This document shows, piece by piece, positions 6,039 to 52,237 of a DNA stretch of 64,000 bases. This DNA is from Tyzzerella sp. (GTDB lineage Bacteria > Bacillota > Clostridia > Lachnospirales > Lachnospiraceae), in NCBI GenBank assembly GCA_017465565.1, contig JAFTWA010000039.1:98454-162453 (forward strand), read 5' to 3'. Position 1 is the stretch's first letter. Every line of letters begins with the position of its first letter. The notes under the pieces were generated by a model, which saw nothing but the letters and a program-made list of their open reading frames with translations, made no database searches and was not told where the DNA came from. A program made the position numbers and the translations under genes.

Positions 6039-6054
6039 ACACTCATTACCTCCT

Positions 6055-6378: not shown

Positions 6379-6643
6379 GTGACTCCAACTCCTTTGCCAG
6401 TTTTTCGTACACTTCTTTTGGAATAGCATGTTTGAAAGAACGTTCAAGACCTTTGCCTTTTACTGCTTTATCAAAGCATTCTTTTGAAAAACAGAGATAA
6501 GCGCCACGTCCATTCTTCTTTCCTGTTGTGTCAATCACAAAGTCTTCATCCGAAGTTTTTAAAACACGCATCATTTCTCGTTTATTTTTCATTTCTCCAC
6601 ATCCTACGCATTTACGCATAGGCACTTTTTTCACACTATTCAC
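6368..6643 (-). CDS. rnpM: YlxR / RNase P modulator RnpM
   Basis: A 91-aa protein of the YlxR family, recently named RnpM because it binds RNase P RNA. It shows the conserved PMRKCVGCGEMKNKREMMR start and the central KNGRGAYLCFSKECFDKA. It lies 15 nt downstream of nusA and overlaps ylxQ, the normal order. Confidence 0.93.
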   Translation of the reverse strand: MNSVKKVPMRKCVGCGEMKNKREMMRVLKTSDEDFVIDTTGKKNGRGAYLCFSKECFDKAVKGKGLERSFKHAIPKEVYEKLAKELESLEA

Positions 6644-10649: not shown

Positions 10650-10662
10650 CTTTCGCCTCCTC

Positions 10663-34665: not shown

Positions 34666-34868
34666 CTGAAAAGCGTACACCCTTCTTCTTTAAATTCCTC
34701 AATCTTTTCAAGAAGATCCTCCTCTGTACATCCAAGATACTCGGCAAAACAATTCAAACAATAAAAATCAGATATTTCGTTGCTTAATATCTTTTTATTA
34801 ATTCCAATTGTGTCCTTATCTAATTTTTCCTTTCCACATACAACACAATTAATTTCCATCTCTAACAT
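34662..34868 (-). CDS. Small zinc-knuckle protein in the BREX operon (unrecognised)
   Basis: A 68-aa protein with two CxxC pairs (Cys8/Cys11 in NCVVCGK and Cys37/Cys40 in FYCLNCFAEYL) and an acidic helical C-terminus (EEDLLEKIEEFKEEG). This is a likely zinc ribbon. It overlaps the end of brxL by 20 nt (11 nt if ATG 34859 is used) and the start of the desulfurase by 4 nt, so all three are co-translated. I do not know a described role. It could be an adaptor between the desulfurase and BrxP or a DNA-binding accessory. Confidence 0.8.
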   Translation of the reverse strand: MLEMEINCVVCGKEKLDKDTIGINKKILSNEISDFYCLNCFAEYLGCTEEDLLEKIEEFKEEGCTLFR

Positions 34869-36324
34869 CCTTTACTGCATATTGTGGTATGCTTTTCCCA
34901 CGATATTCCACATCTAATATTCCCAACTGTGTTTTTATTATTCCTCTCATTTTACACGCAGGTCTGAGGCAATAAAGATTAAACTCATGCATAGAAATTT
35001 CTTTTGCAGCGCGAACATTCGGAAAAAGAAGTTTTAGAAAAGCTGTACATATTCTTTTAACTGCCTCCGTATCACGAGTATCTGGATGGTCTGGTAATTC
35101 AATTAACTCATCAACAATTGCTCTATAACTCACATCCTCGCGCAATTGATGCATTATTGAACTAAAATATTCCGAATTAAGCGCCCATCCACATACTTTC
35201 AAATCATCGTTCATTCTTGGAATGTCCCATCCCTTAATAAAACCATGTATTCTATCAAGCAAAGCACTTTCCTGAAAGAGCTTAGGTAATTCAGTAAACA
35301 TATTTGTATACTCATCCATATTATCTTGATGTATGTTTCCCAAGAAAACTACCCCCGCATCTGACTTGCCATCATATCCACCAATATTAAATGTTCCATA
35401 CTCCATGTATCCTTGCATAATTGAACGCATTTCGTTAACGTCCCCAAACTGCACAAGTTTTACTTCATCAATTACAACAAAATCATTTCCTATAATAAAC
35501 CCTGGAGATCTGCGTGATGTGTCGTAAAACATTTTTGCCCGAGTCACTTTACCTCCGTCAGTCAACATACCGTATTTACTTACATGACCAAACACATAAG
35601 ACTTTCCTGTTCCCTTAGGCGCCAATTCAATTATATTTAATCTTTTTTCAACAAATGGTAGTAAACGAGAAAGCATTGTTAATTTTTGTTCTTTGCTCTT
35701 ATACCCTGACGCATTGTAATCAATCGCTCCTAGTAAAATATCTATCCATTCATCAATGGAAAATTCGTTTCGAACATCTTTGTAATACTCAATATCTATT
35801 GAATATGGGCAAAAATTTTTAAAAGCAGTAAGTTTAATTTTTCCTTTTTTACCTTTTTTCATTTTGTCATCTTCAAACTGCTGGTCAAACTCATTTGGAG
35901 CACGATATCCTAGTTCAATCATCCCCCATGTCTCATGTTCTGCAATTAACTCATCTTTCACTTTCTCCCAGACACCGTCTTCGATAATTGTATCTTTATT
36001 TGTCAAGCCAAAATCCGGAAGTGAAAATGTAATTTCACTAGTTTGAATATCAATATCAACTGTTATTTTCGCTAATATTTGAACTTTTTCACGTTCAAAT
36101 ATAATCTTATCCTTTATCGCTGTCCAATCTTCTTTACGAGGAATATATGCTTTCACAAACTCTGATATTTGCACTGCGTCAAAATTTCCATTATCATCTT
36201 GAAATTCAGCCAGTAACCAGTCTCTCATAAATGAAGGAAGGCTGAGTGTAGAAAAAAAATTATTCTTTTTTAAATCCTTATAAACAATCATTCCATTAAA
36301 ACAATCTCTTATTTTTTCATGCAT
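34849..36324 (-). CDS. brxL: BrxL, AAA+ protein of the BREX system (short form)
   Basis: 491 aa. The AAA+ core has a Walker A-like APKGTGKSY (about 233), Walker B FVVIDEV (about 283) and the family stretch SRRSPGFIIGNDFVVIDE and MRSIMQGYMEYGTFNIGG. BrxL of type 1 BREX forms DNA-bound AAA+ rings and carries an additional C-terminal Lon-like domain. This copy is about 180-200 residues shorter and ends without a recognisable Lon Ser-Lys domain. Its ATG overlaps the pglZ stop (TAATG). Confidence 0.87.
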   Translation of the reverse strand: MHEKIRDCFNGMIVYKDLKKNNFFSTLSLPSFMRDWLLAEFQDDNGNFDAVQISEFVKAYIPRKEDWTAIKDKIIFEREKVQILAKITVDIDIQTSEITFSLPDFGLTNKDTIIEDGVWEKVKDELIAEHETWGMIELGYRAPNEFDQQFEDDKMKKGKKGKIKLTAFKNFCPYSIDIEYYKDVRNEFSIDEWIDILLGAIDYNASGYKSKEQKLTMLSRLLPFVEKRLNIIELAPKGTGKSYVFGHVSKYGMLTDGGKVTRAKMFYDTSRRSPGFIIGNDFVVIDEVKLVQFGDVNEMRSIMQGYMEYGTFNIGGYDGKSDAGVVFLGNIHQDNMDEYTNMFTELPKLFQESALLDRIHGFIKGWDIPRMNDDLKVCGWALNSEYFSSIMHQLREDVSYRAIVDELIELPDHPDTRDTEAVKRICTAFLKLLFPNVRAAKEISMHEFNLYCLRPACKMRGIIKTQLGILDVEYRGKSIPQYAVKDVRDGN

Positions 36325-38648
36325 TATTTACCAAAACCTCCACTCAGCATATTATCAAGCGTCAGCCCTTTTGCTCTTTGTAGGCCTTCTCTTTCAAAAC
36401 GGAAAACAATATTTGCTTTTACTGGATTACCTGAAACATAGATATCAGCCACACAATCGCACGCTCGTTCTGGCTTATCTAGTTGAAATTTAAAAGTTTT
36501 CTTATCTGTTTCTGCAACCCCTGTGTAAAATTTTCCATTCACTTTAATAGAAAGATTACTAATTTCGTTTTTCGACCAAATAACAAGAACTGGTTCTGTT
36601 TTATAACTGAATGTAACCTTTCTATCATCGTTCATCACCTTAAATTCCCACAAAGTGCTATTTCTTGTGATACGTATCACAGGTACAACAACCTCTTCCA
36701 ATGTTGCACCTCCATGAGTTTCAACAGCAGCTGGTCTCGCACCATCAAACCTATCATAGCCAGCCAGAATACACAACTGTCCTTCATGTACCGCATACGA
36801 AAGGTCTTTTGTTTTGTCATTATTTTCGCATACTCTTCCACCATGAGTGCCTGTGCGATTAGATTCTATTGGTAAAATAGATTTTTTTATTACAGCAAGC
36901 CTACTAGCTCCATGATCAGAAATTATATATGCGTGTTTATATTTGTTTGTTGCAAGCTTAGCACTTATATTGGAAAGCACTTTATTAATAGTTTCCAATT
37001 CATCAATCAGATGAATTGGATATTCTGATTTTTCAAAATTATAGTCTCCAATTGCTTCATGTTTATCCTTATCAATTTGCTTAATAAAACCAACAATTTC
37101 AGCATCATATGTCTTGAACTCACTCAAAAACTCCTTATTGACTTCAGTAATTGATGGTAAATTACACTTTGCTACCTTAGGTTCTGCAAAAAGGTCTTTT
37201 TCCGCACACTTCTGTAATATATAGTTAAGGAATTCTACTCCAAGGGCATCTACAAAGTATAAAATAGAATTCTTCTTATCAAATCCGCCAACAATTTCTG
37301 CTCTAGAAGGAAGCTCTACAAAATGCTGTTCTTCAGCTTCTTGTTTCACTAATTCTTCAAATTCCGGATAAATTACATTACGCAACTTTTGCATCGTGTA
37401 TTTTGCAAAGTACATATCTAGCAACTCATTATTATAATAATAAGGACTAACATAATTATAAAAATCCGGGAAATTTGTTTGAAGAAGAGATAACAATTCT
37501 TCGTCATTAAACTGTGCCTGATATAATCCAATAAGTTTTATTGCCTTTTCCTTTTCTTGCTTCGTTAAATCGGATAAATAATAAATAGCATCTTTTCCTT
37601 TTTGATCCACGAACTCACAATAATCAGCAACTTCTTCTTCAGATAAATTTAACCGATATCTCAATGACTTCCACTGTTCATAAAGACCTTGAAATTTATT
37701 ACTATTATGAGCATATTGCAAGATGACACGAATTATATTTCGCATTAATTCAGAATGAATATTTGTTCGGTCCACAGCATCAAAAATAATCTGATTTTTG
37801 CATTCAGGAAAAACTTTCATAGCAACAAACAACAACCACTTTTTGTAGTCATCGTAATTATTCCACTCTTGTAACGCATATTCATAACTATTACTATCAC
37901 CAAAATGCTTCAAAATGATTGCTTTAAAACTAGACTGTTCTTCGCTCAAATTAAGCAGATATCTCCAATACCGTTCATCGTGTTCTTTGCCTAAAAACAC
38001 ATTGAGTTCTGGAAATTTATTTTGAAGAATTTGAAGAGGTGTGTTAAGCATACTTATCGCATATTGGCCCTTAGCAAAAACCAATGGTTTATTTTTCGTC
38101 CGAACAAAAACCTCTTCTCCAGTCATTTCATTTTCTATTGCCTCCGGTAAATTTTCTATGCCACATATTACATTCACTGTCTCGAGCGAGAACTCGGGAG
38201 ACAGGAATGTAATATGAGGTTTAACAAAATCCTCATATGTATCAACTGTTACTACTTGCTGCATTACACGCAAATCTTTCTGACTCATAGTTTTTAATAT
38301 TTCTTCGCAATGATAACAAACGACAACCACTTTCTTTGCAATCCTCATATTACACAATATTTGCAGTGTTTTTTGTAACTCATCATTTCCAATCAATCGC
38401 AAATAGGTAGTCAAACCAAACACAAATGTATTTTGAGGACTTTTCTTTAAAGTATCAATCATGGCCATGACATTTGGCAAACTATCATCTTTCGCAAAAT
38501 CGGCAATATGACTGATTACATTTGTACCGACATTAAAATAATCATAAATTGCTGTCTTCTGATAAGAATTTTCAACATTAACGAACAGCGGTAAAGTAAC
38601 TTCTTCATCTCTTAGGTATTCATTTATTCGCTCAATGCAACCATTCAT
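36324..38648 (-). CDS. pglZ: PglZ, alkaline phosphatase-superfamily BREX protein
   Basis: 774 aa. The C-terminal half is a PglZ phosphatase-like domain: LYFVDALGVEFLNYIL (about 461, metal-binding Asp), YIISDHGASRLAV (about 576), GTHGGRVCEN (about 603) and AAVETHGGATLEEVVVPV (about 650). The N-terminal half is helical. PglZ is the signature protein of all BREX types. It lies between brxC (18 nt) and brxL (1-nt overlap). Confidence 0.92.
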   Translation of the reverse strand: MNGCIERINEYLRDEEVTLPLFVNVENSYQKTAIYDYFNVGTNVISHIADFAKDDSLPNVMAMIDTLKKSPQNTFVFGLTTYLRLIGNDELQKTLQILCNMRIAKKVVVVCYHCEEILKTMSQKDLRVMQQVVTVDTYEDFVKPHITFLSPEFSLETVNVICGIENLPEAIENEMTGEEVFVRTKNKPLVFAKGQYAISMLNTPLQILQNKFPELNVFLGKEHDERYWRYLLNLSEEQSSFKAIILKHFGDSNSYEYALQEWNNYDDYKKWLLFVAMKVFPECKNQIIFDAVDRTNIHSELMRNIIRVILQYAHNSNKFQGLYEQWKSLRYRLNLSEEEVADYCEFVDQKGKDAIYYLSDLTKQEKEKAIKLIGLYQAQFNDEELLSLLQTNFPDFYNYVSPYYYNNELLDMYFAKYTMQKLRNVIYPEFEELVKQEAEEQHFVELPSRAEIVGGFDKKNSILYFVDALGVEFLNYILQKCAEKDLFAEPKVAKCNLPSITEVNKEFLSEFKTYDAEIVGFIKQIDKDKHEAIGDYNFEKSEYPIHLIDELETINKVLSNISAKLATNKYKHAYIISDHGASRLAVIKKSILPIESNRTGTHGGRVCENNDKTKDLSYAVHEGQLCILAGYDRFDGARPAAVETHGGATLEEVVVPVIRITRNSTLWEFKVMNDDRKVTFSYKTEPVLVIWSKNEISNLSIKVNGKFYTGVAETDKKTFKFQLDKPERACDCVADIYVSGNPVKANIVFRFEREGLQRAKGLTLDNMLSGGFGK

Positions 38649-38666: not shown

Positions 38667-41600
38667 TTACTTTTTCATGTCTGTTTTTATTATCCCAATT
38701 CCAACCGAAATATCTTCTTGAATCAGTGATTTCAGATATGTCTTCAACTCTGATATATCGTCCATTTTATCAACAATATTCTTTGCCAATACACTACCTT
38801 CCGTATCATATTTTGCTGTGGCAAACTCTTTAATAAGCTTATCCACCATTGGATTTAAATACCAATCATATGGCTGAGCTGCTGCTCGCTCCTTCAAATA
38901 AGAACGCACTTCATCTACCCTCAACAACACGGCGTATTCTTTTAAAATCTTTTCTCTAAAGACTTCATCACATTTATCTTTGTCTAATAACGTTTCATAA
39001 AATGAAGTAGTTTCAAGATATTCCATAGCCTTAATTGTTTCATCATCTTCTGGACGTTGTCTTGAAAGTGTTAAAAACGCTTGTCTGGCTTTGTCATACT
39101 CTTCTTCACTAACCATACAAATGATAGGCGTCTCGTTTAACTTCGACCACTCTTCTGGCGAATCTGTATTTGTCTTTTGCCGCCACAAATTTTTTAATTT
39201 AATTTTACCCAATGTGCTCTTAAAATCTTTTGCCACTTTTTCCACTAATTGTAAGTATGATGTCTTATCTTTTGTAAAAGTATCTCCCGTTGGCATTGTA
39301 GTAAATAAATTGCCTTGCTCATCGGTATCAAATTCTTTTACATAGAAATTGCAAACTGTAATAAATAAACTAAGCTGATTTTTGTAATACGCATCAAACA
39401 AATCTCCCTTTTCCTGAATTAGCTTGAGAAAAACATTTTTTTGAGAATCCAAAAGTGTTCCCTGACGTTTTAAATCATACAATGCTTTTACCAGTGGTTC
39501 TATGTCACCGAGATAATTTTTTGATGCCTCATAAGAAATACGGATGTTTCCGCATTTTGCTTTCCAACCATCAAGCGCCTCTCGAAGATTTTTTGCTTTC
39601 CCAATAAGCTTGTTACTCTCAGCAATTATTGAATATTCAACGATAACCTCGTCTATTTTTTTATCAGCAGTTTCTTTTGCCCATACCCAATTTGCAGAGT
39701 CAGCATCAAATTTTTTCTTAACTTCATTTATGTACTGCCCTTCATCTTCAATGTCTTCGGCAAGTTTTATGAGTTCTTCATTGTTATATCCCTTTAAATA
39801 AGCTGACATTCCTGCTCTGCAATTTTCTTTTGTAAATAAGAAAGGTAAATCTTGGATAAGTGTAGGATTTTCTTTAAACAGTGTACCAATTGCACTCGCT
39901 ATTTCAGATTCAGCTTGGCCCATAGCTACATTATTAGCTATTCCAGAATACAATTGTATTGCTTTCAAAACTATTTCTTCACTAGTTACCAATAAAGCAT
40001 CTCTCAAATGATACTCTAGACACCAAATAGGGAATGTTAATTCCTTCATTCGATTACGAATGTAGTTTCTAGTATTAGGAACATTTGTACACTGCTCGAT
40101 ACTTATACCAAAGGCTGCGCAAGTCAACTCATTAAACTTACGAATCTCCTCAGTCATGGTTACTATATATTTTTCACGATACTTAGTTTCTTGACCAGCA
40201 GCATACTTAATAACCCACTCAATCATCGCTGATAAATTTGCTAGGGTCATTTCTCCACCTGCAATGCCATCATCATAACCGTATTGATCACCAATATAAT
40301 CTTTTAATACAAATCCAAGAATAAATGCCGTAAGATTGCACGGCAAAAAACCATAAGGTGCTTCTGTGAGTTTTGTGTAAATAGTCGAAATAGCAACTCT
40401 ATCCCCCTTATCAAACTCCTCTTTAATCACTTCTTCTACGCATTTTTTTATTTGTGATATATGGAGATGAGGCTTATCTTCCCAATATCGGTACTCTTCT
40501 GGCATTCCCCAAGCTCCCTCTAGAGCCTTTTCCAACTTTTTCTTAGGTTGTGGTGCATTGAATGGTCCTTCAGTCTTTCCATTAACTGCAGATTTAACAC
40601 CTTGTTTTAATGCACCAATCACATACATACCATCTATAAGATCGTAATTCACTTCAGGAGCAAAACGATATGTCTCGCGAACAACACTATAAAGTCCAGC
40701 ATGAAGATCATCAAGATTACTACGACGTTCACGTATTATCGTCCCATTACTCGCTCTTCTACAAATGTAGAAAGCTCCATTATCCTGTATATCTTGTTTC
40801 CATGCGCCAATTTCTTCAGAAGCCTTTTGTGAATAATTTTGGCTCTGCGTATTATCATTCTTATCAAACGCTTCACTTTGAACCATATACTCGATAAAGC
40901 TATTCCATCTATCATTTCCAAATGGAGTGGCTCCGGTATCAATAATAGTCAAATTCATATCGTCTGTTTTAGAATCCTTCAGACAACTATCTATTTCACT
41001 CGCAATAATTTGGCTTTCCGCATCATTTTTAGAATACACACAAATACAGTTAAATGTACCCTTTTTATGTGCTTGTTTCTTCATCTTGTTTATACAGCTA
41101 GCGATAGTATCGTATGCTGCTGTCATAAATGAAAATCTCAGTTTTAGAGCACCTGGCATTGAAAGAGTATCATTAAACTTTTGTTCAGCTATTAATTTCG
41201 ATGTTGGCCACTTAGCTTCAACATCCTCTTTTTGTATAGTTGTAGTAGCAATTAATTGCACAACATACACCTTTTGTCCCTGAATTGTTTTAGGGAACAA
41301 GATATCCATCTTGCATAAACTTTCAGCTATACTTGCCGCACTATTTCCAATAGCTGTTCCTTCGAAAGCTAAGTTTAAATTCTTCTCAGTTGCATAAAAA
41401 CATTCTACTGCATCGCCATTCATATAAGAAATAGCTTGCATCAATAATACTGTTTTGAGAATTTTACTTTGTTCATCATCCAGCCTATAACTTTTCGCCT
41501 TACTAATGGTACTCAAAATATTCCTAATATCTTGACGCAAATATCTACCTTCATCCTGATAAAAGTACTCCCAAAGCATGTCAATTGTAACAAACGGACT

Positions 41601-42908
41601 TGCTGTGTATGGTCCATAGTTATCGATATACCATTGAAAATCCTTTAGTTTAGTACCTAGATTATTCTTAATGTACCCAAACATACTTCTAGTATTTTCT
41701 TGGAAAGAAGAAGCTATATACTTCAAAATCAACGCTGCATACGGATGAATCGGCAAAATATTCATCATATCTTCATCTGTAATATCATCAGGCGTAAGCG
41801 TATTCAACTTATCTTCAATCATTTTGCGACTAACGCTAGTATCAAAAAACTGCGTCTCACAAATTTCTTTCCATTCTTTAGCAATTTGTTCATCTGCGTT
41901 CTTCTCCAACGCATGTCCAATAAGTTTGAACGCAATGTTTTCCGGAAGATCAATAACGCATGTAGGTTTAACAAAACGATCAATTACCTTTTTCTCGCTT
42001 TTTCCATCTTTTGAAACTTCCTCACTTACACCGGAGTGGGTTACAACTAACAAACAAAAATTATTTGTTTCTGTAACCTCCATAATTTCTTGAAAGCCCG
42101 TAAGATCATGAATATGATTTTGAAAATATTTTGTGAATTCATCCCAAACAAAAAACAGTTCTTGTAAATTATTACCTTGAATTACATCTTTGAGCCATTT
42201 GATAAAAATTTTAACATCCAATTTCATTGGATCAATACCATTTTGTTTACCTAATTTAGCAATTTTACCCATCAAAATTGCCAAAGCTTCACCAGTGTAA
42301 GTCTGCAAGCCTTTAATAATATCGTCAACAGTTTGACCAATAAACTGGCTATCCTCCGCTAAAATCAACTCAAAATAAGCCTTATTTCTGGGAATAGACA
42401 ACCATTTCAAAGAAGCATCTTTTAAAGTAGAATGTCCCAGGTATGAACATTCAGCTTCCTTCAAAGCTTCAATAATACTTTGTTGCATAATAGAACAAAG
42501 GTCGGCATCTCCATCAATTGATGATGTTCCATAGCAATGGACTGTCACAATCTTCTTAATGCTACCACTATCATCTTTTCGTTCCTTCATAGCACAAAAT
42601 CTTTTTTTCAAGGTCTTGTCAAGATTATATCTATCGAAATACGCCTCTGTACTTTCACGATCCGCCTTAAGAAGACTGGTAAGCGTAAGAGCTGCATAAG
42701 ATTTACCCGTTCCATAGCCACCCTCAACCCATATTCCAAGGGGTTGCTTTCGCTCAATAACATTTGCTGTAGTTTCTATTAAGTTAATGAACGTAGGATG
42801 AGGATAGAAATCTCTCCAATCAACGTCACCTTTGTTAATAAGTTCATCGGTAACACAAGGATAATACTGTTTTTTTATATCGAAATACTTTCTATATGTA
42901 CTTGCCAT
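38667..42908 (-). CDS. brxC: BrxC, large P-loop ATPase of the BREX system
   Basis: A 1413-aa ATPase with Walker A EGGYGTGKS (residues 62-70) and Walker B LFFVWDEF (about 255), followed by a very long helical region. The start YRKYFDIKKQYYPCVTDELI and the size match BrxC/PglY. The family is needed for both modification and defence in BREX systems. It lies 15 nt after brxP and 18 nt before pglZ. Confidence 0.9.
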   Translation of the reverse strand: MASTYRKYFDIKKQYYPCVTDELINKGDVDWRDFYPHPTFINLIETTANVIERKQPLGIWVEGGYGTGKSYAALTLTSLLKADRESTEAYFDRYNLDKTLKKRFCAMKERKDDSGSIKKIVTVHCYGTSSIDGDADLCSIMQQSIIEALKEAECSYLGHSTLKDASLKWLSIPRNKAYFELILAEDSQFIGQTVDDIIKGLQTYTGEALAILMGKIAKLGKQNGIDPMKLDVKIFIKWLKDVIQGNNLQELFFVWDEFTKYFQNHIHDLTGFQEIMEVTETNNFCLLVVTHSGVSEEVSKDGKSEKKVIDRFVKPTCVIDLPENIAFKLIGHALEKNADEQIAKEWKEICETQFFDTSVSRKMIEDKLNTLTPDDITDEDMMNILPIHPYAALILKYIASSFQENTRSMFGYIKNNLGTKLKDFQWYIDNYGPYTASPFVTIDMLWEYFYQDEGRYLRQDIRNILSTISKAKSYRLDDEQSKILKTVLLMQAISYMNGDAVECFYATEKNLNLAFEGTAIGNSAASIAESLCKMDILFPKTIQGQKVYVVQLIATTTIQKEDVEAKWPTSKLIAEQKFNDTLSMPGALKLRFSFMTAAYDTIASCINKMKKQAHKKGTFNCICVYSKNDAESQIIASEIDSCLKDSKTDDMNLTIIDTGATPFGNDRWNSFIEYMVQSEAFDKNDNTQSQNYSQKASEEIGAWKQDIQDNGAFYICRRASNGTIIRERRSNLDDLHAGLYSVVRETYRFAPEVNYDLIDGMYVIGALKQGVKSAVNGKTEGPFNAPQPKKKLEKALEGAWGMPEEYRYWEDKPHLHISQIKKCVEEVIKEEFDKGDRVAISTIYTKLTEAPYGFLPCNLTAFILGFVLKDYIGDQYGYDDGIAGGEMTLANLSAMIEWVIKYAAGQETKYREKYIVTMTEEIRKFNELTCAAFGISIEQCTNVPNTRNYIRNRMKELTFPIWCLEYHLRDALLVTSEEIVLKAIQLYSGIANNVAMGQAESEIASAIGTLFKENPTLIQDLPFLFTKENCRAGMSAYLKGYNNEELIKLAEDIEDEGQYINEVKKKFDADSANWVWAKETADKKIDEVIVEYSIIAESNKLIGKAKNLREALDGWKAKCGNIRISYEASKNYLGDIEPLVKALYDLKRQGTLLDSQKNVFLKLIQEKGDLFDAYYKNQLSLFITVCNFYVKEFDTDEQGNLFTTMPTGDTFTKDKTSYLQLVEKVAKDFKSTLGKIKLKNLWRQKTNTDSPEEWSKLNETPIICMVSEEEYDKARQAFLTLSRQRPEDDETIKAMEYLETTSFYETLLDKDKCDEVFREKILKEYAVLLRVDEVRSYLKERAAAQPYDWYLNPMVDKLIKEFATAKYDTEGSVLAKNIVDKMDDISELKTYLKSLIQEDISVGIGIIKTDMKK

Positions 42909-42923
42909 TTATCTACCTCCACA

Positions 42924-45245
42924 TTAAAAAAGTTCAAGAACATTTGATGATGTTTTTTCATTCTTCAAGTAAATGTTATCTAAATCAATTGTAAACGATA
43001 CTGAAATAAATTCAGGATAATTTGATGCAAGACCATTTAACACTCTAATCATTATGTCTCGATCAAGACCAAAAATCTGTGTAGGACTTATGCCGTCACT
43101 GTCTATATCATGATCTAGCAAACGATTGAGTGTAAAACTATAGTATCCACCGCATTTTTCTGCGAACTTATACAGTGCATATAAAATAACTCTTGAATCT
43201 GGATTTGACCAACTTGTCCGATATATCGACATCAGTTTATCTTTCTCTTTTTTACCATTTCCAAATCCTATATCACCAAATGGTAGACTTGCAAATCTAT
43301 TGAAGCAACTCCAAATATCTTTTGCCCAAGTTGTTTTCGCGCCCGCTTCCTCCAAAAGAGATATCGTATAATCTTTACTATATTCACACTCAAAATCAAT
43401 ATTTGTCACAAACCAACGCAATTGTGGAGAATAGACTGCGTTTGTAAACATAATCCCCCAGGAAGCAATGTCATTTAACCCGAGTTTTTTTACTAGTTGT
43501 GCCGTAGACGAAAATTTGTTATCAACAAGCATTTCGCTATCTCGTAAAAAACGTTTAAAAAAACTATACATCTGAGAACCTAAAGTATGATTTTCATCAA
43601 ATTCATTTTCATATTTTATATATTGCTCAAACCACTCCATTTTAGGAGCAAAGTGTGAATAGCAATTCAAACTCTTTTCTTTCATGTTTTGATTATCTCC
43701 TTTTGGTATTTCTATAGAATTATACACTAAACAACCTTTGAGTGCTTTATGACATTCGGAACAGTGTTTGCAGTCATCACTAATACTAATCTCACCATTT
43801 TGCATTGAAAGGCAACCATTATGACAATCTGCTTCGCACTCATGACATCCTATACACTGTGCTGCCTTTCTAAATACATTTTTAAACAACTTAATAAATA
43901 AAGGATTTTGTTTTGCTATTTCATTCGAAATAACTATCTTTATATCATCGCCACTTTCTAAGACATCAAAACTATAGTTATTCCCTCTGTGCATCACACT
44001 ATACGAACCATTATCTTGTTCCAGCACCCCAACTGTTTTCATCCAGATTTTCCAATCAGTGTTTGGCTCTCTGATTTGAATGATTATTTGTCCCTTTTCG
44101 ATTCTATCTGAATATTTTGGCAAAAAATGTAGATCTCTTCCATTCTTTCTCGCCTTCCACCCTCCGTTTTCAATAAATTCTTGCAATCTTTCTTCTGATT
44201 GGAAATTTTGATTATAATGTTCTTTGATTTTCTTCACTAGTGCATCAAATTCCTCTTGATAACACTCTCTAGCCATATATTCGTTTCTCTCTGATGCTCC
44301 AGGACATACTAAACATCCAGCTCGGCGATTTCCCTTTTTATATGCACTATTAAGAATAAGACTTTCTGAAAAAATATAGAGATATAATTCTGCCGAATTC
44401 CATTCGAGAATTGGATTACAACTCCACTGTCCTTTATGTTTTTCACCAAGGCTAACATAATCATACTCACTTCTTGATAGACTTTCACTACCACGAACTC
44501 CCACGAATGCCATTCCCGTAAAATTATTTTTTTCAATATAGTCTCTTAATCGAAGAATCTGCGGTGATGTTTTATGAACACTACAACACCATCTAACAAC
44601 TGTTGCCGGTGGACCAAATTGACTCCATGTATATTCGGGATTAAATTCGGATTTCGAACGAAGAAATACTATATTTTCACCCAAACACCACTCTTCAATT
44701 TTATCAACCACATCATATGTGTCTGGAAATTCCATCCCTGTATCTCCAAATAAAACTTTAAAATCGTTATGTGGAAGCGCCCTTGCTACAAGATCCAATG
44801 TCACAACACTATCTTTTCCTCCACTGAAAGCCACATAAAACACATCTATTTTATTACGGTATTCCATATAGTAATTATATATTTTTTTAATAGTTTCTTG
44901 TGTTAGACTTTCCATTATTTCTCTGTTCTTCTCAACCATTGCCGGAATGTCTACAAAACGAAGATAGTCTCCCTCTGGTTCTGGCTGTTCTACCAAAATA
45001 ACTTCTGGTTTTTGACATAAAGAACCGCCTTTTGTCTTTGCAACAAGTCGTCCTCTATAGTAGTAATTATTTGACTCTGCCCACATATATGGAAACATAT
45101 CATTCTTGTCATATTTCCAATATTGATCAAATCCTAATATATCCAATTCCTCATAATAAACTGGTCTTGGCTCCTTACTAAAAATAAGAGGGGTATTATT
45201 TAATTTATAGCCGCCTGTCTCAGCGTCCCATTCATAAGAATACAT
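42924..45245 (-). CDS. brxP: BrxP, PAPS reductase-like sulfurtransferase with Fe-S domains
   Basis: 773 aa. The PP-loop motif AFSGGKDS is at 139-146, followed by LFGDTGMEFPDT, the PAPS-reductase stretch RWCCSVHKTSPQILRL and GVRGSESLSRS. A CLVCPGASERNEY segment lies near 313. A ferredoxin-like module follows with two clustered Cys sets, CIGCHECEADCHNGC (about 465) and CKHCSECHKALKGC, which can hold two 4Fe-4S clusters. DndC, its closest known analogue, uses this chemistry to put sulfur into the DNA backbone. BrxP defines type 4 BREX. It lies 11 nt after the 788-aa gene. Confidence 0.9.
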   Translation of the reverse strand: MYSYEWDAETGGYKLNNTPLIFSKEPRPVYYEELDILGFDQYWKYDKNDMFPYMWAESNNYYYRGRLVAKTKGGSLCQKPEVILVEQPEPEGDYLRFVDIPAMVEKNREIMESLTQETIKKIYNYYMEYRNKIDVFYVAFSGGKDSVVTLDLVARALPHNDFKVLFGDTGMEFPDTYDVVDKIEEWCLGENIVFLRSKSEFNPEYTWSQFGPPATVVRWCCSVHKTSPQILRLRDYIEKNNFTGMAFVGVRGSESLSRSEYDYVSLGEKHKGQWSCNPILEWNSAELYLYIFSESLILNSAYKKGNRRAGCLVCPGASERNEYMARECYQEEFDALVKKIKEHYNQNFQSEERLQEFIENGGWKARKNGRDLHFLPKYSDRIEKGQIIIQIREPNTDWKIWMKTVGVLEQDNGSYSVMHRGNNYSFDVLESGDDIKIVISNEIAKQNPLFIKLFKNVFRKAAQCIGCHECEADCHNGCLSMQNGEISISDDCKHCSECHKALKGCLVYNSIEIPKGDNQNMKEKSLNCYSHFAPKMEWFEQYIKYENEFDENHTLGSQMYSFFKRFLRDSEMLVDNKFSSTAQLVKKLGLNDIASWGIMFTNAVYSPQLRWFVTNIDFECEYSKDYTISLLEEAGAKTTWAKDIWSCFNRFASLPFGDIGFGNGKKEKDKLMSIYRTSWSNPDSRVILYALYKFAEKCGGYYSFTLNRLLDHDIDSDGISPTQIFGLDRDIMIRVLNGLASNYPEFISVSFTIDLDNIYLKNEKTSSNVLELF

Positions 45246-45256
45246 AACATTTCACC

Positions 45257-47623
45257 TTACATTTCATCATTTTTATTTCGGTTCACAATAGCCTTTTTCA
45301 GTAATTCTTCCACCTTCTTATATCGCCTATCTGTAATAAAACCTCGCTTGCACAAATAATCTAACGCATCGTTTTTCGATGTAATATTAGTCCGAGCCAA
45401 TGCATCAATTACAATGGATTCAAAATCGAAATTCGTCGTTTGTTTCTTTACAATTACACCAGCAGCACTGCTTTTTGTAAATCCAAGAAATTTAAGTTCA
45501 AACAATTTGCTAAATCGAAAAATATACTGTTGCAAAAGATATGTATTCCATGGGTATCCACACACTGGGAATCGCATAAACTCTACAATTTCACCTATTG
45601 GTAAATAATCATCGCAGTAAAAAGAAATTGCACTATCTACTGATTCGATATCAAACTCCACAGCATCCTCCGATACAAATTCATCGCGATTAATACGAAT
45701 CGCATTCTGATGAATCACCTCCCAATACGGAGCTGTCCCAATATAGTTTGCTAATTCCTGAACATTTGCTACAGTAAAATAAGTATGACCCTTTGCATAG
45801 TCAGCAAATACATCTGCAATTTTCATCTGTTCACCTTTTCTTGTAATAACACCTGTTGCAACATCATATTTGGCTCGAAGATAATAGGTCAATATTCTAC
45901 GTATACCAAGCACACTAAATTTTGTTACTAATTTCTCATACAAATCCTCATCAACCTGCACAAGATTATCTACTATCTCATTACAAGTGATATATTTACT
46001 ATCTTTTAACAAAGTTTCGCAAATCTTAACAAACACTTTTTTATCATTCTCTGAAATATGAGCAACATCAACATGAAAATATTCTGTTTTACTATTTCCC
46101 ATAATTTGTGGATTATTGAAATGAAGTACCGAATAAATATCATCATGATCTAAATGAGATAACTTACTGTAAATATCTTCATACGAGCACGGTTCATCTG
46201 CACTAATCAGATAATTTTCCACTTCACCAGCAATATTAGGCTTTGTCCCTATTTTGTATGAAAAATATTTATTTTCGTAATACAGCGGAGTTCCATCAAA
46301 CGTTACTTTCATATACTCAACAAGCATTTCTGTACTATAAATATACGAATTGAACAAGTCCTTAAATTTTTCAAACAACACATTATAAAATAGCACATCA
46401 TAATTCTTAAAATACTCTTCAATATATTTAACAAGTTTTATAGCTATATCTTTTTCAACTATCGCCTTTGGCAAAAAAAATCGTTCATCAAAAACAAAAC
46501 ATTTCTGATTAATGTAACTCAAAATTTCATCGTTTTCTACTATTTTCCCATACTGTTCTTCAAAAAGACTTTCAAATCGTCGGCGATCCATAATTGAATT
46601 CGGACGATATCCTCGTTTAAATGCGGATATTAAAACAGACTCGATTTCAGAAGGTGCTTTATATGCTCGTTCTATGGTTATAGAAACACTTTGAACCACT
46701 TTAGCAGAATTATTCCTACCAAGAATATATCCTTCCCCAAGTCTTTCCGCCCAGCTCGCAAATGACAAAATATTTAACATTGCTTCTTTAGAAATATCAT
46801 AATCCTCTATAACTTGGTCAAGCGTTAAATAAGCATGCTTATAATTTTCTTTTAATAACGAATATACTTGTTTAAATGCTTCAGGATACAAAGCATTCAA
46901 TTCCATATCTTTCTCAGTAACAACATATTCATGCAACTCGACTTTGTTGGATTCATCTAGCGTTTTTACACCAAATTTCAAGAACTTTGCATACAATTTT
47001 GCATAATTTCGCAAAAATTTGGATAAATCCTTATGCAAAACACGAAAAAAATTAAAACCTTGTAATGTATTAACAAAGGTATTATATTGCTTTAAATTAT
47101 TTATTTCCCATACTGTGTTAATGCTTTTCTTTTGATTAATTGCATAATCAGAAACTTCATCAAAACAGATCAATATCCAATTAACAAAATTTTCTTTTTC
47201 CCCTGCATCCAAAAGCCATTTTCGAAATTGTACTTTATTGTTACTTTTTCTCGTGCCAATCGCCATTGTCTTTTCATCTAACGCCGGTGATTCTGCCTTC
47301 TCAAGTGCGTATGTGAGAATTTGTTTATATTCCTCAGGCTTATTCTTTCGCAATGCCACTATTTCGTCAAACAATTTTGTTCCAACTTTATTAGTTGGAC
47401 TAACCTTGCCAAAAGCAGAATACTCCATGCTTTGAAATTGAAATGTAATACCATTAATATTTCGATAGATTTCATCAATATTTTCACCATGACTAATAGC
47501 CATCTTTCGAAGCATATTTGATACGCGTCGTATTGCCTCTTTTCGTCCTTCTTGTTTGTTCTCTACTCTAATTACAGCCTCAAGAAGGATTGCAGCTTCA
47601 TATTTATTCCACTTAGGTTGCAT
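45257..47623 (-). CDS. Unrecognised 788-aa protein, first gene of the type 4 BREX operon
   Basis: I do not recognise this protein. It is mostly helical with several winged-helix-like segments (TLDQVIEDYDISKEAML; SADEPCSYEDIYSKLSHL; YCDDYLPIGEIVEFMRF), which suggests DNA binding. The N-terminus (EAAILLEAVIRVENKQEGRK; RRVSNMLRKMAI) is well-structured, and the C-terminus (ARTNITSKNDALDYLCKRGF) resembles a small folded module. There is no obvious catalytic motif. It precedes brxP by 11 nt and is clearly in the same operon. It may be a target-recognition or regulatory subunit. Confidence 0.85.
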   Translation of the reverse strand: MQPKWNKYEAAILLEAVIRVENKQEGRKEAIRRVSNMLRKMAISHGENIDEIYRNINGITFQFQSMEYSAFGKVSPTNKVGTKLFDEIVALRKNKPEEYKQILTYALEKAESPALDEKTMAIGTRKSNNKVQFRKWLLDAGEKENFVNWILICFDEVSDYAINQKKSINTVWEINNLKQYNTFVNTLQGFNFFRVLHKDLSKFLRNYAKLYAKFLKFGVKTLDESNKVELHEYVVTEKDMELNALYPEAFKQVYSLLKENYKHAYLTLDQVIEDYDISKEAMLNILSFASWAERLGEGYILGRNNSAKVVQSVSITIERAYKAPSEIESVLISAFKRGYRPNSIMDRRRFESLFEEQYGKIVENDEILSYINQKCFVFDERFFLPKAIVEKDIAIKLVKYIEEYFKNYDVLFYNVLFEKFKDLFNSYIYSTEMLVEYMKVTFDGTPLYYENKYFSYKIGTKPNIAGEVENYLISADEPCSYEDIYSKLSHLDHDDIYSVLHFNNPQIMGNSKTEYFHVDVAHISENDKKVFVKICETLLKDSKYITCNEIVDNLVQVDEDLYEKLVTKFSVLGIRRILTYYLRAKYDVATGVITRKGEQMKIADVFADYAKGHTYFTVANVQELANYIGTAPYWEVIHQNAIRINRDEFVSEDAVEFDIESVDSAISFYCDDYLPIGEIVEFMRFPVCGYPWNTYLLQQYIFRFSKLFELKFLGFTKSSAAGVIVKKQTTNFDFESIVIDALARTNITSKNDALDYLCKRGFITDRRYKKVEELLKKAIVNRNKNDEM

Positions 47624-47758
47624 AACAATTCCCCTTATAATTTTTTATTTTCAAACCTTCTAGAATGCCTCCACATTTCATCAGCATATTTCTCATATTT
47701 CATACAAACTTCCAGACAAACAAATCAATTGCGTTTGGAACAAAATTACTCAATATAT

Positions 47759-47787
47759 AAAATATCACATAAACTATTTTATTTCAA
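47759..47787 (-). promoter_or_regulatory. Weak candidate promoter of the BREX operon
   Basis: TTGAAA (782-787) and TATTTT (759-764) are 17 bp apart on the minus strand, giving a leader of about 130 nt before the 788-aa gene. The -10 is poor, so the assignment is tentative. Confidence 0.3.
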
Positions 47788-47903
47788 TTCGCATTAACGT
47801 AATTCGACAAATTTCTTTTTTGGCAACTTTAGTATTTATTTGCTAAAAGTTACATTTTAAGATTGATCTAATTATCTTTTCTTCTACTTCAAACTGTTTT
47901 TTT

Positions 47904-47954
47904 AACAAAAAGCAAGGTGAACCAAGGGCACTTACGTACCCTTAATCACCTTGC
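47904..47954 (-). terminator. Strong intrinsic terminator upstream of the BREX operon
   Basis: A nested hairpin: outer 9-bp GCAAGGTGA/TCACCTTGC and inner AAGGG/CCCTT. On the minus strand it is followed by CTTTTTGTT. It stops leftward transcription from the mazG side, so the BREX operon needs its own promoter. Confidence 0.8.
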
Positions 47955-48342
47955 ATTGATAACCTCTGTTATATTCTAACACACATCCCCAGAAAAATCG
48001 ACATTATTTTCACCTTGTCTTATCCTTGGATTGCCATCAGACAAAAGCCACAAACCGTCCTTGCCCGTGTCACCTAGCACCTATATGCCTCTTTTCCCTT
48101 CGCCACACCACGCTTCTCACATAATTTTGTCCTAAACTTGTCCTAAAACTTTCTTCCTAACGCCCACAAACCTTTACATTTCTTGCTATCTTACTACTTT
48201 CTCCCGCGCTGCCGTGGCAAACCATTAATACTTTTATCATAATTTAATCTCCTAATTTATTACTTTCTATTTCGTGAAAACAGAAAAGCCAAGCATGGTA
48301 TAGATAATACCATAAACTTGACTTTAAATCTATGTATTTAAG
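47955..48342. other. Non-coding junction between the two defence clusters
   Basis: No gene is visible in about 390 bp. It holds a TTGTCTTATCC copy near 48017, the right tandem repeat at 48127-48148, and a perfect 7-bp palindrome ATGGTAT-AGATA-ATACCAT at 48295-48313 just past the mazG-like stop. Base composition shifts to more C-rich, patchwork sequence. It is probably the right end of the integrated element. Confidence 0.5.
48127..48148 (+). repeat. Right tandem 11-bp repeat matching the left one
   Basis: TTGTCCTAAAC is followed directly by TTGTCCTAAAA. With two flanking T it matches 17 of 18 bases of the block beside the integrase, in the same orientation. It may be integrase arm sites or part of the att core. 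Confidence 0.6.
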
Positions 48343-48687
48343 CTATTTTTCTTTTAACTCCGTATACTTTTCTTTACTTCCAAAAGCCTTTTCTACAGGA
48401 TATTTTTCATTATTGCTTTTTACTTTTTCTCTGACTATTTCATCCAAATCTAGTCCGCAAGTATCAGCCATAAGTATACAGTAATTCACTACATCTGCAA
48501 GTTCTTCTTTGATTTTATCCTTCTTTGATTCACAAATTACGTCTTCGGCACTCCACTGAAATACTTCTAAAAGTTCTGCAGCTTCTAAGTTTATTGAAAT
48601 TGCCAAATCTTTTGGATTATGAAATTGTTTCCAATTTCTATCATCTCTAAATTTTAATACTTGTTCTATTGTTTCCTGCGTCACCAT
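48343..48687 (-). CDS. MazG-like nucleotide pyrophosphohydrolase
   Basis: A 114-aa all-alpha NTP pyrophosphohydrolase of the MazG / dCTPase (RS21-C6) type: the metal-binding EAAELLEVFQW and EELADVVNYCILMADTCGLD pattern is complete. It hydrolyses (d)NTPs to monophosphates. It follows the GIY-YIG/helicase gene by 20 nt, a recurrent pairing in bacterial defence islands. It might deplete or sanitise nucleotides during infection. Confidence 0.85.
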   Translation of the reverse strand: MVTQETIEQVLKFRDDRNWKQFHNPKDLAISINLEAAELLEVFQWSAEDVICESKKDKIKEELADVVNYCILMADTCGLDLDEIVREKVKSNNEKYPVEKAFGSKEKYTELKEK

Positions 48688-48707
48688 TTTAACACCTCCA
48701 TTACATA

Positions 48708-50462
48708 CTATTTAGTAGCATTTAATAATGCCTCTCGCAATTCGTCATCGCATGCATAAATATATAATCCTTCAACTCCGCGGGTCATAAGTACACGCAC
48801 TTCATGTTGAATAAGCGTTTCACCGAACTGCTTTTTACTTCCATCTAACAATGTTCTATTTCTTACCGCTTTTGCGTTACAGCTAGCTGATGGATCGAAT
48901 ATAATCTTGCCATTACGATATTTCACAGAAGGTCCCAGAATTACGCCTGCATAATTCAAATCAAACCCCTGAATTGTAAATGTAGATCCTACCTCTCCAA
49001 GCGTTTGTGGTTGTTCCGCCCAAGAGAGTGACTTATTTGCTCTCTTAGTTCTTCTATCCAACTCCTGTTCTAACTCTCTATTCCAAGGTTTATGCCACTT
49101 GTCAATAATTACTTCCCAATATTTTGAGAACCTTGCCACTGGAGAAGAAGTTGAACTATATTCCCAATCATATGTTGCAATCATTCTTGATAATTTATGA
49201 TTATCGTCTAAAGCTTTTGACTTTAATGCTTCTTCTAATTCATAAGGACTTTCAAAGATTCTTATTTCGTATCCACCTTTATTACTTGGGATTCTTGAAA
49301 TTTGACGCCTTTTTGTAAAATCATCAATCCAACTAACTATCTCTTCTGATGCTTTTATACGAAGTTGATTTTTCAGTTCAAAATAGTTATTCTGTTTCTT
49401 TGCTAATTCTCTATACTGTTCTAATATTTGAGCTTCCCAATATTGTTCTGTTGTGAGTATCTGATTTTCATCAAACATTACTACAGTAACTCTAGCTCGG
49501 TCAATAATGTCTTTAAGTTGATTATTGCCTTGATATGACTGCTTACCCTGGGTTAGAAGTAAATGTGCTTCATCGATAAATGCAACATCTATAGGTTCAT
49601 CCTCTGTATGATGATTAATAAATGTTGTTGGCTTACAAACAACTTCTCCATATCGTTCTGTCAATCCAAGTTTTTGTGCAATTTGTTTGTAAACTGTAAT
49701 CTGTTCATCATGATTTACCATCATGCAGCATTTCAAAGGTTCTATCTCCTGCTCCTCCGCACTAGCAAATATCTCATAAAATGTGCTACTATTAAGAACT
49801 GTTTTTCCTGTCCCTGCTTCTCCCTCAATGAATATCAATTGATTTTTCTTTTGTGTTTGCAATACCCCAAAAATTCTCTGTAAAATGCATCTTTTCACCT
49901 CTTCTTGCTCCTCTGTTAATTTGTGAAGAGGCGATGCCTTAAAAACAGCTGAATCCTTTATTGCACTTTCACTTGGAAATAACTCTTTATTGTCACTACG
50001 AAGTTTTTTCCAAACCATTCGGAAAATATCATTCATCTCGGTATCCGGATAATATCTACTTTGTGGATTACCACGCACATTATGAATTTTTCTCACACGC
50101 TCTACACTCATCATATAATGCATTAATCTATTCTCTATATCCAATGTCATAGATTTATTAAAGTGCTCATGCCCAATAATATATAAACTTACATCTTGCA
50201 ATAAAAGTTGATGTTGCCATTTACCCTTATCTGCGCCAGCATCGTAATGTTGCTTTGTTCTTTGAACAATGTTATTAGATTCCCCTATGTAAACCTCATA
50301 ATCACCCGTTTCCTTCCAATTATGAATATAAACTGTTGGAAATTGTAACAGTATTTTTCTTTCTTTATCAGATACCTCTTCAAACAACGACTCCTGAAAA
50401 CCTCTTAGGCCTTGTATATTATCATTTATTTTCTTCACTATCGGTTTAATGTTTGTTCCCAT
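48708..50462 (-). CDS. GIY-YIG plus DUF2075 (Schlafen-like) nuclease-helicase protein
   Basis: 584 aa. Residues 43-73 (TVYIHNWKETGDYEVYIGES) form a GIY-YIG-like nuclease core. A superfamily 1 helicase-like DUF2075 ATPase follows, with Walker A IEGEAGTGKT (about 215), Walker B AFIDEAHLLL (about 295), the TFTIQGFDLNYAGVILGP motif and the VRVLMTRGVEGLYIY end. Such fusions are seen in phage-defence neighbourhoods. It is co-transcribed with the MazG-like gene. Confidence 0.82.
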   Translation of the reverse strand: MGTNIKPIVKKINDNIQGLRGFQESLFEEVSDKERKILLQFPTVYIHNWKETGDYEVYIGESNNIVQRTKQHYDAGADKGKWQHQLLLQDVSLYIIGHEHFNKSMTLDIENRLMHYMMSVERVRKIHNVRGNPQSRYYPDTEMNDIFRMVWKKLRSDNKELFPSESAIKDSAVFKASPLHKLTEEQEEVKRCILQRIFGVLQTQKKNQLIFIEGEAGTGKTVLNSSTFYEIFASAEEQEIEPLKCCMMVNHDEQITVYKQIAQKLGLTERYGEVVCKPTTFINHHTEDEPIDVAFIDEAHLLLTQGKQSYQGNNQLKDIIDRARVTVVMFDENQILTTEQYWEAQILEQYRELAKKQNNYFELKNQLRIKASEEIVSWIDDFTKRRQISRIPSNKGGYEIRIFESPYELEEALKSKALDDNHKLSRMIATYDWEYSSTSSPVARFSKYWEVIIDKWHKPWNRELEQELDRRTKRANKSLSWAEQPQTLGEVGSTFTIQGFDLNYAGVILGPSVKYRNGKIIFDPSASCNAKAVRNRTLLDGSKKQFGETLIQHEVRVLMTRGVEGLYIYACDDELREALLNATK

Positions 50463-50620
50463 TCTTTCTGTTCCTTATTATTCTTCAAGCATCCTGGAGT
50501 TTATAATTTTTCAACATTTCTGAAATCCCCATGCTCCATAATCTACCATCATAATCTTTAATAACACTATTCTTAAATTATATTACGGGAGAATGATACT
50601 TTCAATCCTAATGTTTGAGT

Positions 50621-52195
50621 TTAAACATTATAAAAATTTATAATTCTATCTATTACCTCTTTCAAATGTGCAAACACAATTTCTAAGCTACCATCATCCA
50701 TATTACAGATTGCCTCACAAAAAGCCATTTTATCAAATTCTTCTATTTCTTTTTTTTCACCATAGTCTCCAATCGTTGTCTTTTTAACATAAAATGGTTG
50801 CAAATCAACGGCATCTAACACTAAGGCATTTTCAATCCCTTTTTGAATTTTTTTAGCATTATCATATCGTGGGATCGACAACGCCACAACATTATTTTTG
50901 ATAGTTTCTTTTCTATTAGTATCACAATCCTTTAGACATATATTTATAATCGGTAGATTACAAGCGACCAAAAACTGAAATGCTCTATCAACACTTTTAT
51001 CACCAGAATTAACTTCTTGTCCATTATCCCCTATATATCCTACCCATTTAAACCGAAAAGGAACCTCATATTTAAACACTTGTAAAGCCTTTGTAAAATA
51101 CCTCTCATCTGTTCTACCTTCAAGATATACCACTGATTCCTCTGTTGAAAATTCATGAATCGAAAACGCATCACGAACTGCTTCTTGGGATGCACATTTG
51201 AAATATTCTGGTTTATCATTAACAACAATATCGCCTGCATCATTTCTTGTAAGTACAATAACTTTATCATTTTTTCGATTTTCATTATGTACAATAAATG
51301 GAGAATGTGTTACTGTGAAAATTTGTGAAGTCTGTAACCCATTTTCATTAGTAAAAATCCCTTTATAATAATCCATAATCTTTTTCTGCCATGTAGGATG
51401 GAGACTAATTTCTGGTTCATCAATGAAAACGAACGCTCCATTCATAGCATTTACATTCTTCAGTAAAAAACATCCTCGATAAACAATTTGTTTTTCACCA
51501 GAGCTCAGGTTATCAATTGGTATATCTATTCCATTTTTCTTAAACAAAATAGCTTTATAACCATTCATATTTTCTATATGACTATATATAAGCCCATCAA
51601 ACATTCTTGAAAATGCTTTTGTAAATCTAGGCATTCGTTCATTTGTAACAAGTTGTGACAATGGTATATCAGGATTCTCTCTACATACCTTGGACACCTC
51701 AGCATCATCTAGCGCCTGAATATCTATTATTAATTGCTTGATTTGTTTCGGAAAATTTCCACTTGATTTATAACTTGTATCATCTGAATCTAGAGAAAGA
51801 CTCGAAACAGAAGATATATTTGAAGCATGAAAATTTATATCAACATCAGAAAATATTCCATTAAAGAAATATCTTTGTCTAAAGTCAGGATGTCCTGGTA
51901 TTGTATTCCATCCAGACTCATCTTTAACCCATATTGTGTTCTGTCCATTAATATTTTTAAAATAATAGTTTAAGATGTGTGATTCATTATCTTTCTCAAT
52001 TTCAACAGATGCTTCAAACTTTGGTTCTCCTGATATAATTTGATATATAGCGTTAAGTATTGTACTCTTTCCACAACCATTCTCTCCTGCAATTATTACA
52101 GTATCTACTGCCTTACCATCACCCCTACAAAAATCCAATGAAAGGTTTCCTAATATTGTATGATTATTAAATGTGATTTTTTTTATTTTGTGCAT
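50621..52195 (-). CDS. ABC-type ATPase fused to a TOPRIM-like nuclease (OLD / fused PARIS-like)
   Basis: 524 aa. The N-terminal SMC/ABC-like ATPase has Walker A GENGCGKST (37-45), signature NLSSGEKQ (about 226), Walker B FVFIDEPEISLHP (about 258) and VTHSPFIV. The C-terminal domain has a TOPRIM-type Glu motif VVYLEGRTDERYF (about 355) and an acidic DCD (about 420), as in OLD nucleases and the DUF4435 effector AriB. A single-chain PARIS (AriA-AriB) or a class 1 OLD protein are the two best readings. It lies 42 nt downstream of the NACHT gene. Confidence 0.75.
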   Translation of the reverse strand: MHKIKKITFNNHTILGNLSLDFCRGDGKAVDTVIIAGENGCGKSTILNAIYQIISGEPKFEASVEIEKDNESHILNYYFKNINGQNTIWVKDESGWNTIPGHPDFRQRYFFNGIFSDVDINFHASNISSVSSLSLDSDDTSYKSSGNFPKQIKQLIIDIQALDDAEVSKVCRENPDIPLSQLVTNERMPRFTKAFSRMFDGLIYSHIENMNGYKAILFKKNGIDIPIDNLSSGEKQIVYRGCFLLKNVNAMNGAFVFIDEPEISLHPTWQKKIMDYYKGIFTNENGLQTSQIFTVTHSPFIVHNENRKNDKVIVLTRNDAGDIVVNDKPEYFKCASQEAVRDAFSIHEFSTEESVVYLEGRTDERYFTKALQVFKYEVPFRFKWVGYIGDNGQEVNSGDKSVDRAFQFLVACNLPIINICLKDCDTNRKETIKNNVVALSIPRYDNAKKIQKGIENALVLDAVDLQPFYVKKTTIGDYGEKKEIEEFDKMAFCEAICNMDDGSLEIVFAHLKEVIDRIINFYNV

Positions 52196-52237
52196 TATAC
52201 CTTCTCCTTTGCCTAGTTAATCTAATAAACCAATTTT

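Follow-up and report, generated by a model that had tools for sequence, protein, structure and literature searches.

The gene set quoted for type 4 BREX is brxPCZL (PMC11931770, PMC12707154). In the passages of PMC12839542 that treat BREX-4, the parts named are BrxC, a PAPS reductase, DUF4007, PglZ, BrxL, a cysteine desulfurase and a small zinc finger, that is, five known components plus the desulfurase and the zinc finger, and the cysteine desulfurase is reported in 56% of type 4 BREX taxa. The same source describes DUF4007 as a BrxA-like DNA-scanning part that is often fused to BrxP. BrxA, DUF4007, SspB and DndG are multi-HTH proteins with several winged helices, for which DNA scanning has been proposed (PMC12839542, PMC10853773). 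BREX-4 has also been the subject of an experimental study by Yuan et al. (Nat Commun 2026, 17:1717), cited in PMC13326643.

The stretch of DNA analysed here, termed the window, comprises 64,000 nucleotides of Tyzzerella sp. (assembly GCA_017465565.1, contig JAFTWA010000039.1, positions 98,454 to 162,453). Its type 4 BREX operon carries BrxP, BrxC, PglZ-4 and BrxL in that order downstream of an extra head gene, orfX, which the cited passages on type 4 BREX do not list. The original prediction had referred to a published four-gene core without this gene, in agreement with brxPCZL as quoted in PMC11931770. The sections and passages of PMC12839542 that were covered mention no X-like protein, and no description was found in the BREX-4 literature searched, which consisted of main texts, with the experimental study of Yuan et al. 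lying outside it. The family, designated X, is apparently undescribed, and its novelty is provisional.

The orfX gene occupies positions 45257..47623 and encodes 788 amino acids from an ATG start that follows aaggggaattgtt. Both the reading frame and its place at the head of the operon were borne out by the analysis, which adds that the strand, absent from the original prediction, is minus. The region 5' of the gene (47624..48342, minus strand) is presumed to hold the operon promoter; a promoter scan found 4 candidates against 3.1 expected from shuffled sequence, which is no better than expectation. The predicted spacing of 11 nt (45246-45256) separates the orfX stop from the start of brxP (42924..45245), and brxC (38667..42908), pglZ (36324..38648) and brxL (34849..36324) follow, all on the minus strand. 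The assignment to type 4 BREX is based on profile matches to all four proteins: BrxP, a PAPS reductase with conserved cysteines of Fe-S type that are invariant in the alignment (PADLOC BrxP, 4.3e-238; PAPS_reduct, 1.2e-29), the ATPase BrxC (PADLOC, 1e-207), a type 4 PglZ (NCBIfam BREX_PglZ_4, 3.3e-121) and BrxL (PADLOC, 1.4e-210). The C-terminus of the window BrxP is weakly SspB-like (PADLOC SspB, 0.0046 over residues 666-762) and matches a short PADLOC BrxP model at 1.9e-5, with no Pfam match.

The orfX product itself matches no family in Pfam (E<=0.05) or in PADLOC and NCBIfam (E<=1), and the best Pfam hits are noise (DUF433, 0.069; Sigma70_r1_1, 0.089, the latter in the core). Membership of the DndB family would be expected to show as a DndB match, and none was obtained in Pfam (E<=0.05), NCBIfam or PADLOC (E<=1). 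An identity as PglX/BrxX was likewise rejected, as an N6-adenine methyltransferase domain was not found with Pfam, PADLOC or NCBIfam. The protein is comparable to BrxA, DUF4007, SspB and DndG in having several winged-helix-like segments and a proposed part in scanning DNA, but differs from SspB and DUF4007 in that it has no PADLOC SspB match (E<=1) and none of 58 X proteins has a DUF4007 match (E<=0.05).

Two features define members of family X, a C-D core and a gene lying immediately 5' of brxP in the same orientation, and orfX has both. Among 101 X or X-like sequences, a set that includes contig-cut fragments, three short B-D proteins without BREX and one module-A protein from locus L120, N-terminal modules A, B and E precede the C-D core in 27 different module strings. 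The window protein has the string A-B-C-D, all encoded on the minus strand. Module A (residues 3-110; 47294..47617; profile 1.5e-41) is all-helical in the structure model, and E9, S35, L38, R54, N55, G58, I59 and Q62 are invariant in 27 sequences (alignment A4). It is followed by the helical module B (residues 130-216; 46976..47236; profile 2.6e-21), by core domain C with winged-helix-like repeats (residues 316-600; 45824..46678; profile 4.8e-96) and by core domain D (residues 600-787; 45263..45826; profile 3.2e-65), which contains a conserved P..G..WN..LL motif region with P686, W692 and L697 invariant in 58 sequences. Locus L120 has a gene of 238 aa (5663-6379) between X and BrxP that joins module A to a putative HNH-like cysteine pattern at its end, with no Pfam HNH match.

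The winged-helix-like segments claimed for the protein were recovered as a fold likeness of the core. The AlphaFold2 model is confident within domains (mean pLDDT 86.2) but not in the placement of the domains (pTM 0.56). A Foldseek search with this model gave three PDB matches at E<=0.001, all UFL1 chains (best 7.9e-5), with SelB next at 0.015 and other weaker neighbours besides; the low TM-scores (query-normalised 0.11-0.16) mark these best neighbours as a general fold likeness only. UFL1 and SelB are both tandem winged-helix proteins. For modules A and B, Foldseek returned no PDB structure at E<=0.001, and PDB sequence searches with profile A1, alignment A4 and the L120 module-A protein returned nothing usable. 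Homology of the X core to BrxC, PglZ, BrxP or BrxL is unsupported (hhalign at most 6.2%).

Some of the N-terminal modules look, by sequence likeness, like DNA-binding kinds. Phage_int_SAM_1, an integrase SAM-like domain, is matched in 6/58 X proteins (Pfam; best 6.7e-7), including L035 and L086, where the match sits on module B and is below the Pfam cut-off; 18 other proteins scanned singly showed no such match at E<=0.02. HTH_26 is matched in 1/58 X proteins, and the X protein of L128 has a HARE-HTH match above the cut-off (3.4e-7). In the window protein itself, SAM-like or sigma hints are under every cut-off or absent.

The association of X with BrxP was assessed from bait loci obtained by searching genome contigs with a BrxP alignment, regardless of X; the best 80 of 340 confirmed relatives were taken, and their BrxP proteins are 43-64% identical in the best segment. 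Of these best 80 of 340 loci, 78 have an X profile match 5' of BrxP in the same orientation, which is split over two ORFs in L041 and L085. The contigs of L051 and L077 have no sequence upstream of BrxP, so the testable set is 78 and the association is found in all of it, which supports a tight link with type 4 BREX in the clade of the window. The gap between X and BrxP ranges from -35 to +38 bases in 74 of the 78 X-bearing loci among the best 80 of 340 relatives. By their record titles, which are unchecked and in many cases those of MAGs, the bait loci derive from Firmicutes groups, Bacteroidota, Fibrobacter, Alphaproteobacteria, Desulfobulbus-type bacteria, Spirochaetes, Synergistes, Akkermansia and one archaeon; the title 'Alistipes' of L048 appears wrong.

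Sampled genomes show the limits of this association. A match is present in 34 of 398 genomes of the window's own phylum, and the loci taken from these besides the window were 16 of BREX-4 type and 18 of SspD type. X is detected by profile in 7/16 BREX-4-type loci, to which L131 adds a weak relative, and in 0/18 SspD-type loci; eight of the 16 (L117, L118, L119, L124, L125, L127, L130 and L132) have no X by profile. The BrxP of X-less L130 is broken, that of L127 short and that of L132 fragmented. Nine loci from further genome samples include five with X; L151, L157 (a fragment) and L158 have none by profile, and L159 has an 832-aa ORF in the X position that the X profile does not match. The original prediction would have been undermined by a rare association: X is near-constant in one clade but not universal, occurring in 12/25 loci from the sampled genomes, where three of the further samples were built around known carriers of BREX-4.

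Relatives also occur outside complete BREX-4 operons. With the window protein as query, 13/295 genomes of its order were matched, eight in BREX-4 loci (the window included), one in L028 and four without BREX in the examined sequence. A single-sequence scan of genome contigs with the same query found no relative, probably because the family is divergent; the whole-genome search did find relatives, and 11 proteins recovered with the window protein were aligned to give profile A1. Plasmids gave no match, and among phages one record was matched. The fecal phage scaffold MT835511 (L174, 12947-26067) carries X-BrxP-BrxC-PglZ-BrxL, and each of three viral contigs (L114-L116) carries X and BrxP. In L028 (86-8650), X core proteins adjoin an SspD-SspB-SspC-type set on a contig that ends before any PglZ or BrxL position.

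A FastTree phylogeny of 125 BrxP or SspD-type tips, rooted at the midpoint and including the duplicate pairs L035/L154 and L089/L123, shows X to mark a single clade, which comprises 98 tips and has a local support of 0.996. X is found by profile in 90/94 BrxP-selected tips of that clade, a count that omits the window and three X-selected viral contigs and in which an X match anywhere in the locus was scored. The four misses are L051 and L077, which lack the sequence, L131, which has a weak X-like ORF, and L159 with its unmatched 832-aa ORF. Outside the clade, X is present in 0/27 tips, comprising 18 SspD-type and nine BREX-4 tips; in six of these nine (L117, L118, L124, L125, L127 with its short BrxP, and L158) each of the four remaining genes is seen. 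The tree omits L132 and L157, whose sequences are too fragmentary. X divides type 4 BREX into X-bearing and X-less systems.

The distribution bears on the view that X is the sequence-recognition subunit of phosphorothioation, whose modules would read the target and hand the site to BrxP. The position of X next to BrxP in 78/78 testable bait loci (from the best 80 of 340 relatives), the shuffled modules, some of DNA-binding kinds, that recall specificity subunits, and the X core beside the SspD-SspB-SspC-type set in L028 speak for this view. It is nevertheless unlikely in our judgement, as X is missing from the BREX-4 tips outside the clade and BrxP may carry a DUF4007-like end of its own (in L118, a DUF4007 match of 3.6e-6, just below the cut-off).

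A further observation against it comes from BrxP. Identity profiles of other operons reveal a swapped central block of BrxP (residues ~181-650 in L038 numbering), whose position in the window, ~43296..44705 on the minus strand, is approximate and was carried over on the basis of similar protein lengths (773 and 774 aa). In the operon pairs L038/L092 and L082/L048, identity in the block drops to 25-57% per 60 residues, with the ends of BrxP conserved, BrxC 86-91% alike and BrxL 91-96% alike. This pattern looks like allele exchange, and the block is a candidate specificity cassette that may set the modification site. A subunit that reads the target would be expected to follow the swapped block, and X does not after controls. 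Partial Mantel tests on 62 operons with BrxL, the C-terminal third of BrxC and PglZ as controls leave no link between block and X core (domain C, r -0.04, p 0.895; domain D, r 0.04, p 0.157); with BrxL as sole control the link is small (r 0.21 and 0.26, p 0.001).

Divergence of the X core parallels that of BrxC and PglZ better than that of the BrxP block, with distance correlations of 0.82-0.90 for BrxC and 0.84-0.89 for PglZ against 0.52-0.54 for the block. For every tested segment, the correlation with the block is only moderate (0.43-0.60); X thus behaves like the rest of the operon, being neither a partner tuned to the block nor special in ignoring it. The conserved BrxP ends track X (r 0.73-0.75), which indicates that shared ancestry contributes to the correlations. 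In a matched comparison of 108 pairs whose BrxC proteins share at least 60% identity, of which 21 at block identity 50-60% were left uncounted, the identities of domains C and D are 46.6/56.9% for same-block pairs (n=37) and 47.0/54.7% for different-block pairs (n=50), and module strings agree in 9/37 same-block and 9/50 different-block pairs.

The original prediction proposed that the protein could replace PglX or DndB. Its tight link to BREX-4 and its DNA-binding-like modules stand, but a role in setting the modified sequence is unsupported: it loses ground because nine outside-clade BREX-4 tips are without X and because the X core does not follow the BrxP block after full controls. The target-recognition parts of type I HsdS and PglX have shuffled modules and change fast. 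X resembles them in both respects, but differs in that it does not vary with the BrxP block and has no methyltransferase domain.

The rate of divergence was compared in 60 pairs drawn from 68 complete operons, each used in at most three pairs, which were chosen for high BrxP identity and a few of which involve the duplicate loci (L035=L154, L089=L123). X is less conserved than each of the other four proteins in 56/60 pairs. Mean identities are 44.5% for X, 53.4% for PglZ, 62.4% for BrxC, 70.6% for BrxP, a figure flattered by the choice of pairs, and 76.8% for BrxL. Fast divergence of X would also fit a decoy or relaxed constraint. As a decoy or guard, X would use its variable modules to bait phage anti-BREX proteins and then trip PglZ or neighbouring effectors. 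Besides the fastest divergence among the five proteins, this account can draw on the turnover of modules and on adjoining defence-type genes, but near-constant presence in the clade suits a working part more than an accessory guard, and we regard it as very unlikely.

Relatives of the X core point to a different protein family. Profile A1 matches 15/216 genomes of the class, of which three hold BREX-4 X proteins and 12 hold other proteins; with a single profile, both C and D are detected in ten of these 12 genomes and D only in two. Ten of the non-BREX core proteins were scanned, and Sigma70_r4 is matched at E<0.01 in 10/10, above the cut-off in five, and RNA_pol_A_CTD above the cut-off in 3/10. 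Alignment of the X core to 11 of these alpha-CTD/sigma-4 proteins with hhalign gives 99.9% for domain C and 99.6% for domain D. No BREX gene was found in 14 loci of such proteins (L160-L173). The proteins of these loci share the C-D core with X (L169, L170 and L173 show D only, with a single profile), but their N-terminus carries RNA-polymerase-type DNA-binding domains instead of modules A, B and E. In L165 (2758-9516) and L167 (9427-15646), the sigma-4/C-D protein is encoded last in a set of four genes whose sizes are similar in both loci; the L165 set includes DUF6339, and its sigma-4/C-D protein adjoins a methylase-NgoFVII nuclease fusion. Under the explanation favoured below, the shared core would connect a defence protein with an RNA-polymerase-like protein family.

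This homology of the core is an argument for X as a transcription factor or RNA-polymerase partner that regulates the operon or couples the BREX complex to the polymerase. An identification of X with the alpha-CTD/sigma-4 proteins themselves was rejected: the C-D core is present, but Sigma70_r4 or RNA_pol_A_CTD is matched in 0/58 X proteins (Pfam, E<=0.05). A role in transcription is also favoured by X-less L124, where a sigma-70 gene recognised by Pfam (10627-12108) lies 28 bases upstream of BrxP, and by X-less L132, where a gene that is sigma-70-like by sequence likeness (4478-5923) lies 27 bases upstream. Putative sigma-like genes or fragments also precede BrxP in X-less L130 (10890-11531) and L118 (11263-11625). 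However, sigma-like genes occur in only some of the outside-clade loci, and a mere regulator of the operon would scarcely be expected to diverge in step with BrxC and PglZ or to be the fastest gene; a role of this kind seems quite unlikely. A bolder version, which we consider very doubtful, holds that X derives from the alpha-CTD/sigma-4 family and that its core ties BrxC-PglZ to opened or transcribed DNA in a transcription-coupled phage defence. The swapped N-terminal modules would then choose the invader, and some X-less BREX-4 systems would use a real sigma factor at the X position.

The explanation we favour, and hold at about an even chance, is that one BREX-4 clade has an obligate fifth subunit in X, a DNA-engaging sensor or adaptor of BrxC-PglZ, with the phosphorothioation site set in BrxP. 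The N-terminal array of interchangeable helical modules would touch DNA or an invader molecule, and the C-terminal winged-helix-like core would dock on the assembly of the BrxC ATPase and the PglZ effector. X would thereby belong to the restriction side as a rapidly changing sensor or adaptor, and the site of phosphorothioation would be set inside BrxP by the central block and the putative DUF4007-like end. If this is right, reconstructions of the X-bearing branch with brxPCZL only lack an obligate component, and the most variable gene escapes finders like PADLOC-DB 2.0.0, in which no model matches it. Discrimination between invader and self in BREX-4 would also become testable, with the modification site in BrxP and sensing in X.

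The surroundings of the operon in the window contain further genes of note. A MazG-like gene, a Schlafen-group helicase with a sub-threshold GIY-YIG match, a PtuA-like ATPase and a protein of 903 aa that lacks a clear match lie at 48343-54949 on the same strand as BREX, and together with the operon this region looks like a defence island. Between it and orfX, on the minus strand from 48240 to ~48157, is a short putative cut-off start that resembles a low-molecular-weight phosphatase.
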